Assembly (NCBI RefSeq): GCF_014201465.1 | Contig: NZ_JACHEP010000005.1 | Span: 1 to 64,000 of the forward strand | Length of the DNA stretch: 64,000 nt | Source of the DNA: Anoxybacteroides tepidamans | GTDB taxonomy: Bacteria > Bacillota > Bacilli > Bacillales > Anoxybacillaceae | Direction: 5' to 3' | Part shown: positions 46,343-54,161 of the stretch, piece after piece | Layout: each line of letters begins with the position of its first letter | Numbering within the stretch: the first letter of the stretch is position 1 | Program-made: the position numbers and the translations under genes | The notes under the pieces: model-generated | Databases searched by the model: none | Seen by the model: only the letters and a program-made list of their open reading frames with translations | What the model was told of the DNA's origin: nothing

Positions 46343-46768
46343 TTGCTTAAAATTGGTGAACTTGCAGGATTAACAGGCGTTTCCAAACGAACGGTTGATT
46401 ATTATACGCAGTTAGGGTTGCTCGAACCTGTTCGCTCTGAAACAAATTATCGCTATTATCCTGAAGAAAGTATTAAACATTTACAGTTAATCCTTGCATT
46501 AAAGAAACAGCATTTAACTCTCGAGGAAATAAAGGAACGTCTGCAGCTGATGAAAAATCAGCCTGCTCCGATGAATGAAATTATCGATAAAATCGAGCAC
46601 CTTCAAGAACAAATGCAGCATATTCAAGAAGAAGTACTGGAATTAAATCCATTGCTTAAACAATTAAATAAACAACAGATCAGATTGATGATAAAGCCGT
46701 TGACCCAGCAAAGTTACGCATTGTTACATTCATTAGCTATATTACTTGGGGAAAATCCTTTTATTTAA
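46343..46768 (+). CDS. MerR-family transcriptional regulator
   Basis: A 141-residue protein with an N-terminal MerR helix-turn-helix (LKIGELAGLTGVSKRTVDYY, then NYRYYPEES) and a coiled-coil dimer helix at about 75-115. There are no paired Cys ligands of CueR type at the C-terminus. The start is probably TTG 46343; the ribosome site GGGAGTGAG is 12 bases away, so an upstream ATT at 46334 cannot be excluded. A 6-base inverted repeat ACTATA / TATAGT at 46258-46280 lies before its TATAAT and could be the operator. It leads a cluster with the protease and exporter genes. Confidence 0.85.
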   Translation: MLKIGELAGLTGVSKRTVDYYTQLGLLEPVRSETNYRYYPEESIKHLQLILALKKQHLTLEEIKERLQLMKNQPAPMNEIIDKIEHLQEQMQHIQEEVLELNPLLKQLNKQQIRLMIKPLTQQSYALLHSLAILLGENPFI

Positions 46769-46797
46769 TACTAATAATGATAAGGGGGAGAATGTAA

Positions 46798-47487
46798 ATG
46801 TTGTTTCATCCGATGGATATTCTCATCTTTTTGGCATTCGGACTGTCGCTTTGGGCACAATTTAAAGTAAAAGGTACATTTAATAAATGGGCGGAAGTCG
46901 ATGCTAATTCGTCTCTCACTGGAGCTGAGGTAGCAAGAAAAATTTTAGATTCCAATGGCTTATATCACGTTCCCGTTGAATTAGTCCCTGGTACGTTGAC
47001 TGACCATTACGATCCATTGTCCCGTACCGTTCGATTGTCTGAACCTGTTTATTATGGACGTTCTATCGCTGCAGTATCGGTAGCGGCCCACGAGGTTGGT
47101 CATGCAATCCAGCACCAGCAATCATATGGTGCACTCGTTTTACGGCATCGTATGTTTCCGGTAGTGAATTTTTCTTCTGGTATTGCGCCATTTCTATTGT
47201 TAGGCGGATTTTTTCTGCAGCAAACTTCGCTCATTGGGCTTGGCATTATTCTCTTTTCAGCAGCCGTAGCGTTCCAATTAGTGACGTTGCCGGTAGAATT
47301 TAATGCAAGCTCTCGTGCGAAAAAGCTTCTTTTAGCTGAAGGATTTATCCACAATGATGAAGTACGCGGAGTAAATGGAGTCTTAAATGCAGCGGCATTA
47401 ACATACGTAGCAGCGGCATTAATCTCTGTTTTAGAGCTAATCAAATTTGTTATGATTTTCTTTCAAGGAAATAGTGAAGAAGAATAA
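46798..47487 (+). CDS. yugP: YugP-like zinc metallopeptidase (membrane)
   Basis: A 229-residue protein with an N-terminal membrane segment (about 5-22), the zinc motif HEVGH at 98-102 with following QH, and three further membrane segments. The segment PVEFNASSRAKKLL near residue 165 supplies a likely third ligand. The family is widespread with unknown substrates. Ribosome site GGGGGAG. It follows the MerR gene by 29 bases. Confidence 0.9.
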   Translation: MLFHPMDILIFLAFGLSLWAQFKVKGTFNKWAEVDANSSLTGAEVARKILDSNGLYHVPVELVPGTLTDHYDPLSRTVRLSEPVYYGRSIAAVSVAAHEVGHAIQHQQSYGALVLRHRMFPVVNFSSGIAPFLLLGGFFLQQTSLIGLGIILFSAAVAFQLVTLPVEFNASSRAKKLLLAEGFIHNDEVRGVNGVLNAAALTYVAAALISVLELIKFVMIFFQGNSEEE

Positions 47488-47509: not shown

Positions 47510-47557
47510 AGGAGGTGGATTCTCTAGCTGTCTGCATACAGTTAGAGAACTTAATTG
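47510..47557 (+). promoter_or_regulatory. Shine-Dalgarno separated from a TTG start by a hairpin
   Basis: AGGAGG at 47510-47515 is 39 bases from TTG 47555, too far for normal use. Between them TCTCTAGCTGT (47521-47531) pairs with ACAGTTAGAGA (47538-47548): 11 bp with one G-T and a 6-base loop. If the hairpin folds, the gap is about 11 bases. The same layout is kept in the truncated duplicate at 51.8 kb, where an A-to-G change keeps pairing as G-T. An extended -10 TACAAT (47500-47505) lies just upstream. Confidence 0.6.
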
Positions 47558-48889
47558 GAGATAGTTAATTTACTGATGGTTGGCATTTTAATTGCCTTGA
47601 CGGCGTTTTTTGTTGCATCAGAATTTGCCATTGTCAAAGTGCGCAGTACCCGGATTGATCAACTTGTGGCAGAAGGAAATCGAAACGCGATGACTGCCAA
47701 ACGGGTCATCAGCAATTTAGATGAATATTTATCGGCTTGCCAGCTCGGAATTACCATTACGGCATTAGGGCTGGGTTGGCTCGGGGAACCAACGGTGGAA
47801 CATTTGCTTCACCCTGTATTTGAGCAAATGAATTTGAATGAGTCTGTAGCACCTCTTCTTTCTTTTGCAATTGCGTTTGCGGCGATTACATTTTTGCATG
47901 TCGTCGTTGGAGAACTGGCTCCGAAAACATTAGCGATTCAAAAAGCAGAAACCGTTACGCTGCTATGTTCAAGACCTTTAATCTTTTTCTATAAACTGAT
48001 GTATCCATTTATTTGGACATTAAATGGTTCAGCGCGTGTGATTACTGGATTATTTGGGCTAAAACCGGCATCCGAACATGAAATCGCCCATTCAGAAGAA
48101 GAATTGCGTTTGATTTTATCAGAAAGTTATAAGAGCGGAGAAATTAATCCGTCGGAATATAAATACGTAAACAATATTTTTGAGTTTGACAATCGGATCG
48201 CCAAAGAAATTATGGTACCGCGCACAGAAATTGTCGCATTAGATAAAAACGATTCAATCGCGGACATTTTGGAAATTATGAAGAAAGAAAAATATACACG
48301 CTATCCTGTTATGGACGGCGATAAAGACCATATCGTTGGGATGGTGAACATAAAGGAAATATTAACGGATTGCATTCAAAATCCACAAGCGGTTAAAAAA
48401 AAGTTAGATGGTTATATTCGTCCAATCATACAATTAATCGAATCCATCCCTATTCATGACTTGCTTGTCAAAATGCAGAGAGAACGAGTCCATATGGCGA
48501 TTTTAGTCGATGAATACGGCGGGACGGCCGGTCTTGTGACGGTTGAAGATATATTGGAGGAAATTGTCGGTGAAATTCAAGATGAGTTTGATATTGATGA
48601 AGTTCCAATGATTCGCAAAGTGAACGAACATACTACCATTGTTGATGGAAAAGTCTTAATTGAAGAGATAAACGATTTACTTGGAACGGATATCGATGAT
48701 ACGGATGTTGACACGATTGGTGGTTGGATTTTAACGGAGAAATTTGATATTCAACAGGGCGAGATTCTCTCTCACGGTGATTATGAATTTAAGGTATTAA
48801 AAATGGAAGGTCGTCATATCCAATTAGTTGAAATTACAAAACGTGTGCAATCTCCTTTACTTGCCTTACAAGAAGCGATAACAGAATAA
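47555..48889 (+). CDS. CNNM/CorC-family (MpfA/YhdP-type) membrane protein, likely Mg2+ exporter
   Basis: A 444-residue protein. It has a DUF21 membrane domain with about four segments (1-190), a CBS pair (about 205-335; MVPRTEIVALDKND and ILVDEYGGTAGLVTVEDILEE) and a C-terminal CorC_HlyC domain (about 350-430). B. subtilis MpfA (YhdP) of this family exports Mg2+. TTG 47555 gives MEIVNLLMVG, matching the family N-terminus MDIVNL. A 5' fragment of a paralogue lies at 51856. Confidence 0.9.
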   Translation: MEIVNLLMVGILIALTAFFVASEFAIVKVRSTRIDQLVAEGNRNAMTAKRVISNLDEYLSACQLGITITALGLGWLGEPTVEHLLHPVFEQMNLNESVAPLLSFAIAFAAITFLHVVVGELAPKTLAIQKAETVTLLCSRPLIFFYKLMYPFIWTLNGSARVITGLFGLKPASEHEIAHSEEELRLILSESYKSGEINPSEYKYVNNIFEFDNRIAKEIMVPRTEIVALDKNDSIADILEIMKKEKYTRYPVMDGDKDHIVGMVNIKEILTDCIQNPQAVKKKLDGYIRPIIQLIESIPIHDLLVKMQRERVHMAILVDEYGGTAGLVTVEDILEEIVGEIQDEFDIDEVPMIRKVNEHTTIVDGKVLIEEINDLLGTDIDDTDVDTIGGWILTEKFDIQQGEILSHGDYEFKVLKMEGRHIQLVEITKRVQSPLLALQEAITE

Positions 48890-49047: not shown

Positions 49048-49168
49048 CTCCTAAAGGGGAGTAGCTTTTACAACAAAGTCGTCATTTCGGAGTTTTGCCG
49101 CTCCCGGCTTTGTTGGCAACGCAACGTTGTTAGCGAGACCTTTACCATATTTGGCAAGGGTCTTTATT
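49048..49168 (+). ncRNA. yybP-ykoY (Mn2+-sensing) riboswitch with expression-platform terminator
   Basis: Hallmark strands GGGGAGTAGC (49056-49065) and GCGAGACCTTTACC (49133-49146) are present. P1 pairs TAAAGG (49052-49057) with CCTTTA (49139-49144). The P1 3' strand is also the left arm of a terminator, GACCTTTACCA (49137-49147) with TGGCAAGGGTC (49152-49162), followed by TTTATT. Metal-bound aptamer would block that terminator, an ON switch. Known members sense Mn2+ ahead of TerC-type exporters, as here. Confidence 0.92.
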
Positions 49169-49176
49169 GTATGTTA

Positions 49177-49206
49177 AACCTTTACCAAATATGGTAAAGG
49201 TTTTTT
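49177..49206 (+). terminator. Second terminator after the riboswitch
   Basis: AACCTTTACC pairs with GGTAAAGGTT, followed by a six-T run (49201-49206) whose first T's belong to the arm. The right half (49186-49201) is also a perfect 16-base complement of the aptamer 3' strand at 49138-49153. Confidence 0.82.
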
Positions 49207-49510: not shown

Positions 49511-50302
49511 ATGGAACTTTCGGTTTTATTAGAATACAGCTGGGTATTACTACTTCTAATTGTGCTTGAAGGGCTTTTGTCAGCTGATAATGCGCTTGTT
49601 TTAGCTATTATGGTCAAGCATCTTCCGGAAGAACAAAGAAAGAAAGCGTTGTTTTATGGGCTTGCAGGTGCATTCGTTTTCCGTTTTGCTTCATTATTTG
49701 TGATTTCATTTCTTGTCAATGTATGGCAGATTCAGGCGATAGGTGCTCTTTATCTTTTATTCATCGCAATCAATCATATTTTTAGAAAAGTAGCTGTAAA
49801 TAAAGGAAAAGAAAAAAATAAAGAAATACAGGAAAAGAAACAATCCGGATTTTGGGGAACTGTTTTCAAAGTAGAATTGGCCGATATCGCATTTGCGGTC
49901 GATTCCATTCTTGCAGCAGTAGCATTAGCAGTTACGCTTCCGAATACAAATCTTCCGCAAATCGGCGGACTGGATGGAGGTAAGTTTCTCGTTATCTTTG
50001 CTGGAGGAGTAATAGGATTACTTATTATGCGCTTTGCTGCTAATTTCTTTGTAAAATTGCTTCATTCGAAACCTGGTTTGGAAATCGCTGCGTTTCTCAT
50101 TGTTGGCTGGGTTGGGGTAAAGCTATCTGTTTATACGTTATCACATCCTCAGCTGGCAATATTACCTGAAGGGTTTGCAAAATCACCTGAATGGAAAATA
50201 ACATTCTATGCCGTACTCGTTCTGATCGCATTAGGTGGCTGGTTTTTATCAAAGGAGAAAAAAGAACTGCCTTCTGCAGAAAAATCCAATGAAAATGTTT
50301 AG
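49511..50302 (+). CDS. ykoY: TerC-family membrane protein (YkoY/MeeY type), likely Mn2+ exporter
   Basis: A 263-residue protein with about seven membrane segments. Acidic residues within the membrane are conserved in EGLLSADNALVLA (about 20-32) and VELADIAFAVDSILA (about 120-134). TerC proteins MeeF and MeeY in B. subtilis export Mn2+ to load secreted enzymes. ATG 49511 follows AAAGGAGGG. Control by the upstream Mn2+ riboswitch supports the function. The symbol is by homology. Confidence 0.9.
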   Translation: MELSVLLEYSWVLLLLIVLEGLLSADNALVLAIMVKHLPEEQRKKALFYGLAGAFVFRFASLFVISFLVNVWQIQAIGALYLLFIAINHIFRKVAVNKGKEKNKEIQEKKQSGFWGTVFKVELADIAFAVDSILAAVALAVTLPNTNLPQIGGLDGGKFLVIFAGGVIGLLIMRFAANFFVKLLHSKPGLEIAAFLIVGWVGVKLSVYTLSHPQLAILPEGFAKSPEWKITFYAVLVLIALGGWFLSKEKKELPSAEKSNENV

Positions 50303-51402: not shown

Positions 51403-51796
51403 ATACTCATGGTGCTAGATGACGATAGACGCTAATTGATCATGTATTTTCCACAGGTCGTGATTATACAGCAAATACGGAAAATGTATTTGCTAATTGA
51501 ATTTTGAGCCACTCCGATTACATCCTTGTGAGCCACTTAAAAATTGACAAATGGTAAATCTGGGGCGTCTTGACATGGAGCCTCTAGAGGCATGATTTCA
51601 CTCGAAAGGCGACACATCAAGGTGTTTCGATAGGCAACAAGCCTATCATGCCTCTCACTCCATATCAAGACGGTGTTTTCGCTGGAAATGGAGTGGCTCA
51701 CGTTTTTACGAGCGAAGTGGCTCAATTTTATGTTAGCAAAAACAGAAAACGCTTGAAAGTAACAAGATTATGACATTCAACCAGCACCACAGGTTA
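51403..51796 (-). mobile_element. Small repeat element, second copy, split by an insertion
   Basis: The two parts, 51403-51484 and 51745-51796, together give the reverse complement of the 128-bp element at 41211-41338 with 3 differences. They are parted by a 260-bp insert at 51485-51744 and the 5-base duplication GAAAA. This proves the order: element first, insert second. Confidence 0.82.
51485..51744. mobile_element. IS21-like non-autonomous remnant nested in the repeat element
   Basis: A 260-bp insert with inverted ends TGTATTTGCTAAYTG and TGTTTTTGCTAACAT (reversed right end), each followed by TGAGCCACT about 12 bases further in. Further TGAGCCACT copies lie inside both ends, as in IS21-family tips. 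It is flanked by GAAAA on both sides (51480-51484, 51745-51749). The interior has no istA/istB, but has a large hairpin with 15-base arms beginning CGTCTTGA (51566-51580) and ending TCAAGACG (51658-51672). Confidence 0.75.
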
Positions 51797-51855
51797 TTAT
51801 ACAATTAATTAGGAGGTCGATTCTCTGGCTGTTTCCATACAGTTAGAGAACTTAA

Positions 51856-52044
51856 TTGGAGATAGTTAATTTACGGATGGTTGGCATTTTAATTGCCTTG
51901 ACAGCATTCTTTGTTGCATCGGAAATCGCCCTTGTTAAAGTGTGCAGTACACGTATTGATCAGCTGATAGCCGAAGGAAATCGAGACGCAGTGGCGGCAA
52001 AACAGCTTCCGTTCATTTTCTTACTGAACTGCGAATATATATAA
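51856..52044 (+). pseudogene. 5' fragment of a CNNM/MpfA-type gene (duplicate of the gene at 47555)
   Basis: The first about 50 codons, and 50 bases upstream, are near copies of the gene at 47555: MEIVNLRMVGILIALTAFFV, then ASEIALVKV. Similarity stops after the codons for AAKQ and the frame ends at TAA 52042-52044, inside the 7-base target repeat of the following MITE. The remaining 390 codons, including the CBS and CorC domains, are missing. The upstream ribosome-site hairpin is kept. Confidence 0.88.
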
Positions 52045-52337: not shown

Positions 52338-54161
52338 GTGGGCGAGTTTTACAACAATGAACAGTCATTAGGTGAAACATTGTTCCGCATTTATCAATCG
52401 ATCGTTAAGTGGATCGAGCAAAAAATAAAACAATTTCCAATGCCGCACCATGAAGAAAGCCGTGACAATTTAATCGCATATTTGTATGCAAAAGAAATGA
52501 TATCAAAGTCTCTCGCCCAAGCACTTGAAGATGAAGGGCTTTCATCACTTTCTGGATACGAATCGCATGTTCTTTCAAGACTCGAGCTTTTATTAAAACA
52601 GCTGCGTATTTTATCTCTTCTTGAAACAACTGTTCAAAAAATCACCCGCCAACAAGCGGAGCAACTGATTAGTGAACGAGCGAAAATGGCATTAGGAGAA
52701 GCGCGGAACGGAAGACGCACGCGCATTATGGTGACGTTAGACGAGCAAATCATACATCAGCCGGAAAAGATTGAACAACTGTTATTGCGCGGTATGGACA
52801 TTGCCCGAATTAATTGTGCCTACCATACTCCTGACGTTTGGAAGCAAATGATCGAGAGCGTTCGCCAAGCAGAAGCGCGTCTACAAAACAAACAGTATTG
52901 GGAAAAAAAGTGCCGCATTTACATGGATTTGCCGGGGCCAAAAATTCGCATCAAGCACATCGTCCACGAAGAACGTCCGTTAAAACTGGCCGTACGAAAA
53001 GACGAGCACGGCCGTGTCATTGAGCCGCTTGTCGGTTTGCTTTCCATTGGCAAGCCGTCGCATATTGACGAACGAGGGTTATCGTTTGCTATTGAAGCAA
53101 CAGCAAAAGAGGAAGTTATGTTGACAGCCGGAGACGAACTATCATTTAAAGATATGCGTGGGCGGCGAAGAACGTTACAAGTTGTTGAAATCATCAGCCC
53201 GACATGTGCGAAAGTGGTGTTGCCAAAGACAGCGTATATTCAAGAGCGAACCGTTTTGAAGCACTCACGCTATCAACTATTTGTGCAAACGATCGTACCT
53301 ATTCCGATTAAAATTCTTGTTCAAAAAGGAACTCATCTCAAAATTTATTTTCATGAATCAAGTTTGCAAATCGCAAACACAGATTTTTCTATAAAAATGA
53401 CAACAACCCTCCCGAAAGCATTTCATAACGTTTGCGCAGGTCACCGTCTTTACATCGATGACGGGAAAATATTTGCGGTGATTCAAAAAGCAACGAACGA
53501 ATATGTCGAAGCGAAAGTGGTGTCGACCGGAAGAAAGCCGCGGATGCTGAAGGAAGGAGCAGGAATTAATCTCCCGGATTCATTCATTCACTTGAACGTT
53601 TCTTCCATGACCGATCAGGATCTGGAGTATATCCCGTTTATTAACCGGCATGCGGATATGATCGGACTGTCATTCGTTCACACCCCGCAAGATGTGGCGA
53701 AACTTCATGCCATTTTAACCGAGCAAGGCGCGCGGCATATGACAGTGGTTGCTAAAATCGAAACGCGGGCGGCTCTTCATAACCTCGCCCGCATTTTATT
53801 GGAAGGGTTGAAGCTGCCGTCGTTTGCCGTCATGATTGCGCGGGGCGATTTGGCGATTGAAGTTGGTTTTGAGCATATGTCAATTGTGCAGCAAGAAATT
53901 TTAACGCTTTGTCGTGCTGCTCATATCCCAGTTATTTGGGCGACACAAGTGTTAGAAAGTTTAGCGAAAAAAGGGTTGCCTGCGCGAGCAGAAATTTCCG
54001 ACGTATCGCTAGGACAAACCGCCCATTGCATCATGCTCAACAAAGGCGCTTATATTACCGAGGCGGTAGAGATGCTTTCGAAAATACTCGAAAAAGAAGA
54101 AGCGTATGAAAAGAGGCAACAAGCCATCGCCCGCTACATGTCCCAACAAGGGATGATGTAG
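52338..54161 (+). CDS. Pyruvate-kinase-like protein, divergent, with N-terminal extension
   Basis: A 607-residue protein. A helical extension of about 125 residues precedes a pyruvate-kinase-like barrel with MVTLD (131-135, where classic enzymes have the TIGPAS region), GMDIARINCA (152-161), MDLPGPKIR (196-204), SFVHTPQDV, AKIETRAAL, ARGDLAIE (501-508), ATQVLESL (535-542) and RAEISDV. The B domain is enlarged (about 205-400). The classic C-terminal allosteric domain is missing. Catalytic Lys (KIET) and metal-binding Glu are kept, so kinase-type chemistry is possible. GTG 52338 follows AGAGGTGAAG. The HD-GYP-like gene follows by 63 bases. Confidence 0.82.
   Translation: MGEFYNNEQSLGETLFRIYQSIVKWIEQKIKQFPMPHHEESRDNLIAYLYAKEMISKSLAQALEDEGLSSLSGYESHVLSRLELLLKQLRILSLLETTVQKITRQQAEQLISERAKMALGEARNGRRTRIMVTLDEQIIHQPEKIEQLLLRGMDIARINCAYHTPDVWKQMIESVRQAEARLQNKQYWEKKCRIYMDLPGPKIRIKHIVHEERPLKLAVRKDEHGRVIEPLVGLLSIGKPSHIDERGLSFAIEATAKEEVMLTAGDELSFKDMRGRRRTLQVVEIISPTCAKVVLPKTAYIQERTVLKHSRYQLFVQTIVPIPIKILVQKGTHLKIYFHESSLQIANTDFSIKMTTTLPKAFHNVCAGHRLYIDDGKIFAVIQKATNEYVEAKVVSTGRKPRMLKEGAGINLPDSFIHLNVSSMTDQDLEYIPFINRHADMIGLSFVHTPQDVAKLHAILTEQGARHMTVVAKIETRAALHNLARILLEGLKLPSFAVMIARGDLAIEVGFEHMSIVQQEILTLCRAAHIPVIWATQVLESLAKKGLPARAEISDVSLGQTAHCIMLNKGAYITEAVEMLSKILEKEEAYEKRQQAIARYMSQQGMM

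Follow-up and report, generated by a model that had tools for sequence, protein, structure and literature searches.

The window analyzed here is a 64,000-nucleotide stretch of Anoxybacteroides tepidamans DNA (contig NZ_JACHEP010000005.1, positions 1 to 64,000). After two co-directional genes it carries a CNNM/MpfA-type gene whose product is probably a Mg2+ exporter; Mg2+ export is reported for MpfA of Bacillus subtilis and Staphylococcus aureus in passages of PMC8844918 and PMC6711546. An AGGAGG at 47510-47515 and the TTG start at 47555 are separated by 39 nt with a predicted hairpin within the gap. Direct reading confirms the first-pass annotation, which had described a perfect Shine-Dalgarno sequence (SD) and a TTG 39 bases apart with a hairpin between them. 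The features of the gene, its leader, and their second copy are:

47510-47518, plus strand: AGGAGGTGG, with the SD, read directly
47510..47517, plus strand: extended SD AGGAGGTG, read directly
47520..47531, plus strand: 5′ arm TTCTCTAGCTGT of the predicted bridging hairpin, from direct reading and folding; modelled pairs covary in 88 distinct rows
47532..47537, plus strand: hairpin loop CTGCAT, not conserved; sequence and length differ among relatives
47538..47549, plus strand: 3′ arm ACAGTTAGAGAA of the predicted bridging hairpin, from direct reading and folding; modelled pairs covary in 88 distinct rows
47550-47554, plus strand: CTTAA, from stem to start, read directly
47555..47557, plus strand: TTG start codon, with an in-frame TAA directly upstream; TTG in 117/125 distinct leaders
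47555..48889, plus strand: CNNM/MpfA-type gene, probable Mg2+ exporter (CNNM, two CBS, CorC_HlyC; Pfam PF01595, PF00571, PF03471, all above cut-offs)
51811..51858, plus strand: second leader copy (SD, hairpin, TTG), 41.3 bits with covariance model R2, whose training set includes it; 85% identical across 208 nt
51856..52044, plus strand: truncated CNNM copy, a 62-codon open frame of which 51 codons match

The window stem has 12 bp with one G-U pair and leaves 4 + 5 of the 39 nt between AGGAGG and TTG unpaired; both the SD and the start codon lie outside it. The stem had earlier been given 11 bp, a difference that turns on whether the closing U-A is included. A distance of 39 nt is beyond the working range, since passages of PMC7392706 give a recommended optimum of 7 to 9 nt for SD spacing in B. 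subtilis, with a plateau up to 12 nt tested with two proteins. The in-frame TAA at 47552-47554 abuts the TTG, so that no start is possible upstream of it. The fold of the window leader by itself is unremarkable (z = −1.5 and −1.7 in two stretches, with −3.0 for the duplicate leader), and the decisive evidence for the predicted hairpin is the comparison of relatives rather than the fold of a single leader.

The DNA of the duplicate leader is 85% identical to that of the window leader (176/208 nt). It keeps the ribosome site, the stem, and the distance, as had been claimed: AGGAGGT is the same, and an A to G change opposite U still pairs. The loop differs by two bases, also as described, and the letter after AGGAGGT changes from G to C. 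Because the duplicate is an 85%-identical copy of a truncated gene, it provides weak evidence of selection. A search of the whole window with the R2 covariance model and no filters scored the two leaders at 47.9 and 41.3 bits and the next site at 10.4 bits; both leaders are in the R2 training set, so the only informative point is how far the rest of the window falls below them.

Several other elements surround the gene. A sub-threshold match to the yybP-ykoY Mn2+ riboswitch (28.6 bits against a cut-off of 45) lies at 49050-49131 on the plus strand with a hairpin at 49138-49203, and the gene downstream of it (49511-50302) is a YkoY-type TerC (TIGR03716, 302 bits). The match is probably a short form of this riboswitch, adjacent to the Mg2+ exporter gene. 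Imperfect inverted repeats and repeated gagccact words (by eye), possibly left by a mobile element, lie at 51570-51700, after the metal genes and before the truncated copy. A 607-aa open frame at 52338-54161 on the plus strand resembles pyruvate kinase with an extra N-terminal part (by eye). In leaders L079-L157, the CNNM start often lies 40 to 130 nt past the end of a gene that looks, by eye, like a Zn-peptidase or MerR gene; 46343-47487 in the window is placed likewise.

Homologues were drawn from 199 related genomes, 398 genomes of the phylum, 299 of the class, 16 chosen genomes, 80 named loci that include Anoxybacillus, Geobacillus, Heyndrickxia, Priestia, Gottfriedia, and Brevibacillus, and 8 named plasmid-collection records. 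Leaders were read for part of the matches, in batches of 153, 27, 44, and 8 plus 20 model hits. A predicted SD-hairpin-TTG layout with unrelated stem sequences precedes many CNNM/MpfA genes across Bacilli. The paralogue in the same genome (73% identical) has AGGAGGTG and TTG in its leader, with a GC-rich hairpin between them whose sequence is unrelated. Inspection of the eight named records by eye shows the hairpin in four (Listeria monocytogenes L279, Priestia L281, Sporosarcina L282, and Niallia L283) but not in the other four (L280, L284, L285, and L286). Two members outside class Bacilli (L171 and L182) have short hairpins, and the clades without a hairpin among the leaders read include f48 (L162-L165, L167, L168, and L250), f208, f214, f221, and f209. 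A bridging leader also stands ahead of a CNNM copy with a broken reading frame (L215, G021:C36:4100-4800), which is another decaying duplicate that still has the hairpin. A FastTree phylogeny covers 160 proteins, of which 124 were scored as having the hairpin, 13 as lacking it, and 23 not at all; the label is clustered, with at least four changes among the scored rows. The hairpins fall in two separate parts of the tree, which implies either an early origin followed by losses or repeated gain; with long branches and labels assigned by script, we are unsure which. In leaders such as L025, L039, L043, and L062, the 3′ arm has one bulged base at a similar height each time, which may bend the helix.

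Spacing was determined in an unbiased set in which the nearest homologous start and the first strong SD were picked without reference to structure or spacing. The set has 125 distinct leaders, contains the distant paralogue L003 and the doubtful L112 and L059, and is without L122 and L141. Three leaders have a gap of 8 to 10 nt and 122 have a gap of more than 15 nt. A stack of at least 4 bp is found in 121/122 long-gap leaders and one of at least 5 bp in 119/122 (1375/2440 in shuffles). Total SD-start spacing in these 121 leaders ranges from 26 to 55 nt (sd 5.2) and hairpin length from 13 to 44 nt. The unpaired remainder has a median of 11 nt and an sd of 3.2 (7.5 in shuffles), and it is 8 to 13 nt in 110/121 leaders. 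Total spacing tracks hairpin length (r = 0.83). The remainder declines somewhat with hairpin length (r = −0.40) and lies outside 8 to 13 nt in 11/121 leaders, which stems in part from ambiguous end pairs or inner loops.

A larger set, in which a long gap was kept only with a helix of at least 4 bp and the SD and start were partly picked by closeness to a 10.5-nt remainder, gave total spacings of 21 to 55 nt, a remainder sd of 2.0 with 8 to 13 nt in 145/156 leaders, and correlations with hairpin length of 0.94 for total spacing and −0.08 for the remainder. By this selection rule the 156/157 leaders with a helix are largely a matter of construction, and the helix claim rests on the unbiased set. 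The larger set started from 233 leaders, 29 of which gave no result, mostly distant members or those with no GGAGG-type motif. L161, L226, and L262, whose hairpins are plain by eye, were restored by hand; the gap was assigned by hand for L238, L246, L253, L090, and L152; and L181, L184, L248, L003, L059, and L112 were left out. The starts of L019 and L082 are misplaced in the larger-set analyses, and TTG counts were therefore taken from other sets.

Eighteen relatives without the hairpin have a GGAGG-type SD 7 to 14 nt from the start (the class is defined as ≤15 nt) and begin with TTG (13), ATG (4), or GTG (1). The first-pass annotation had named homologues with a normal site and no hairpin as evidence against its proposal; some members are of this kind, but the distance from SD to start in them roughly equals the unpaired remainder, in keeping with bridging. 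Across the sets the hairpin behaves nearly as if it were of no length. The narrow remainder, kept over hairpins of 13 to 44 nt, together with the covariation of the stem supports the proposal that folding restores a working spacing.

Covariation in the 5′ regions of homologues, the check proposed with the original observation, proved strong. Alignment A3, which was fitted to the model, has 92 model-aligned rows, 88 of them distinct; pairing holds in 85.4% of its cells compared with 61.6% in shuffles, and 205 cells are doubly changed compared with 53. The A3 covariation score is 0.570 compared with 0.193 when shuffled and at most 0.094 when slid. All 10 pairs are changed on both sides, which is barely above shuffles (8.4; 18/500 as high). 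In an ungapped 11-leader set that was not fitted to the model, 92.7% of cells are paired (84.9% in shuffles), nine cells are doubly changed (3.0 in shuffles), and the covariation score is 0.365 compared with 0.188 shuffled and at most 0.142 slid. Alignment A2 was dropped with the window stem out of register, and A1, in which 4/19 rows are out of register by eye, served to seed R1. Stems picked on Watson-Crick pairs only contain 46 G-T and 10 A-C among 1281 pairs; on A3 the contrast is weaker (77 versus 32, both under the shuffled 123 and 89). The excess of G-U over A-C argues that the coding-strand RNA is conserved.

The element is closely associated with CNNM genes. An R2 search of 61 genomes, with a model trained on these leaders, the window's included, returned 55 matches at E up to 3.1e-4, and all 55 precede CNNM genes or broken copies: 53 at CNNM starts, one at the truncated copy in the window, and one before the broken copy L215. 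Nineteen weaker matches were inspected; nine precede CNNM genes (by eye) and 10 lie elsewhere and are chance-like. Scanned without gaps, the window together with the named loci (940,838 bases over both strands) yielded 65 sites; 58 precede CNNM N-termini, and the other seven have stems of 6 to 7 bp. No convincing SD-hairpin-start case outside CNNM genes was seen among the inspected matches of these scans, which could miss families with a different start context. Rfam gave no match at 47510-47557 up to E = 5 and nothing convincing at the leaders of 20 relatives, where the two sub-threshold matches both concern L038. A Mg2+ riboswitch or other curated Rfam family was rejected for these leaders on this basis. 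AGGAGGTG is the SD in 115/151 distinct leaders, a tally restricted to GGAGG- or GGGGG-type motifs. The SD is less accessible in isolated folds than in 45 control genes (mean unpaired 0.36 versus 0.52). Sequestration of the SD was rejected because it has no dominant partner (means of 0.26 upstream, 0.16 in the spacer, and 0.21 downstream).

The window leader and its CNNM counterparts are very probably structurally split ribosome-binding sites with the hairpin looped out. Comparison of the leaders establishes the predicted layout, the pairing at the level of coding-strand RNA, the narrow remainder, and the association with CNNM genes; the SD, start, and hairpin of each leader are themselves predictions. 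The mRNA hairpin between a strong SD and TTG would loop out on the 30S subunit, and with the hairpin folded about 9 to 11 unpaired nt would part the SD from the start, like a normal site. What selection would maintain is base pairing and the number of unpaired nt; the hairpin's own sequence and length would not be kept. We infer that the 30S subunit accommodates the folded hairpin during initiation and that hairpin and TTG together may give a moderate, structure-dependent initiation rate.

Sites of this kind are known from phage T4. Passages of PMC3014915 describe structures between the SD and AUG of genes 38 and 25 that shorten the spacing from 22 to 5 nt and from 27 to 11 nt, report less initiation when the structure is destabilised, and describe the gene 25 structure as common to close T-even phages and missing from more distant ones. 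The CNNM leaders share with the T4 genes an SD too distant from the start and, by prediction, an intervening structure that spans the gap. In contrast to these AUG-initiated phage genes, they belong to a cellular gene family across Bacilli and beyond with mostly TTG starts, and their stem, unlike that of gene 25, drifts in sequence and length. The E. coli thrS operator reportedly has a two-part ribosome-binding site split by a hairpin that is bound by the gene's own product. The hairpin of the CNNM leaders likewise interrupts a two-part site, but no conserved recognition sequence is seen in them. Mg2+ riboswitches (M-box) and RNA thermometers are cis RNA structures near Mg2+-transport genes or near the SD. 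The CNNM leaders resemble them in this placement and differ in that no Rfam family is found at the leaders tested, the SD and start lie outside the stem, and pairing rather than sequence is conserved. An RNA thermometer was rejected because the SD and TTG are outside the stem and predicted melting is at ~82 °C or more in seven hairpins (1 M salt parameters). A family-wide cellular split site with a drifting stem is not described in Rfam or in the titles, abstracts, and passages searched (mostly open-access), and the passages of PMC8632094 and PMC13009471 matched by term hold no description of the leader.

A possible but rather unlikely reading is that the hairpin is a regulatory switch, its folding modulated in the cell by Mg2+, temperature, or a DEAD-box helicase such as CshB to set exporter translation. 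Since folding joins the SD and the start, the folded state would be ON. The probable Mg2+ exporter function of the window gene and the conserved TTG are compatible with such control. L255 and L256 (f190) carry a 6 to 7 bp bridging hairpin before the CNNM gene with nagA-like and fruA-like genes upstream (by eye), the gene order of S. aureus SA0655-SA0657. The switch also draws on S. aureus, where loss of CshB leads to overexpression of the mpfA (SA0657) mRNA, an effect that is stronger at 25 °C and in RPMI, according to passages of PMC5122736 and PMC6711546; there, however, the authors allow an indirect effect and measured mRNA level, not translation. Passages of PMC6711546 also report that a GUG to AUG change in mpfB, or a changed initiator-tRNA anticodon, relieves the Mg sensitivity of an mpfA deletion, which indicates that initiation strength matters in the MpfA family. 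The leader of neither S. aureus gene is among those read here. The very high predicted stability of the stems speaks against a switch, as does the absence of a visible conserved ligand or protein site, the stem sequence not being conserved as that of an aptamer would be. Passages of PMC11332333 report an anticorrelation between MpfA and OLE RNA across the Bacillota.

It is very improbable that the hairpin instead masks a weak proximal SD in its 3′ arm, with the distal SD as standby or decoy and translation off until the stem opens. An SD-like word of at least 4 nt does occur in the 13 nt from −16 to −4 in 80/151 leaders, but there is none in the other 71, the window among them, and a proximal SD was therefore rejected as a general rule. 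Masking also leaves the narrow unpaired remainder unexplained.

We give very little credence to the idea that the hairpin sits in the leader by chance, whether as an operator-type DNA palindrome, a terminator, or a site of RNA processing. There is an inverted repeat near a start codon and the window gene lies downstream of two co-directional genes, but G-U exceeds A-C, the sequence is not conserved, no U-run follows the window stem, and the position of the hairpin between SD and TTG is fixed within a few nt. An open frame of at least 80 codons ends within 150 nt upstream in 43/79 named loci; the hairpin thus occurs with and without a close upstream gene, which further counts against this origin. 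That the start is misannotated and lies elsewhere, for example at ATG 47576 as the first-pass annotation had allowed, is the least credible reading: TTG is a less common start and the SD distance is abnormal, but the in-frame TAA is just upstream, N-terminal residues are conserved from codon 2 on, ahead of this ATG, and TTG is found in 117/125 distinct leaders compared with only 39/125 for an ATG at codon 8.

As split ribosome-binding sites, the more than 120 distinct leaders would constitute a large natural experiment in the tolerance of the 30S subunit for RNA lying between the SD helix and the P site; their hairpins span 13 to 44 nt and leave about 11 nt unpaired. Start-site predictors built on a short linear spacer would be expected to miss such sites, and an RNA element not found in Rfam is placed on Mg2+ exporter genes, where it is a candidate target for the unexplained link between CshB and mpfA. 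Unlikely, but of consequence if true, is an initiation checkpoint that restrains MpfA-type Mg2+ exporters, in which a non-AUG start is combined with a looped-out hairpin that must be folded to function; high Mg2+ or low temperature would promote the fold and the DEAD-box helicase CshB would undo it. Because any folding sequence suffices, the checkpoint would sense folding itself. Exporter synthesis would then be tied to Mg2+ level through RNA structure with no aptamer involved, and the rise of staphylococcal mpfA mRNA on CshB loss would be accounted for.
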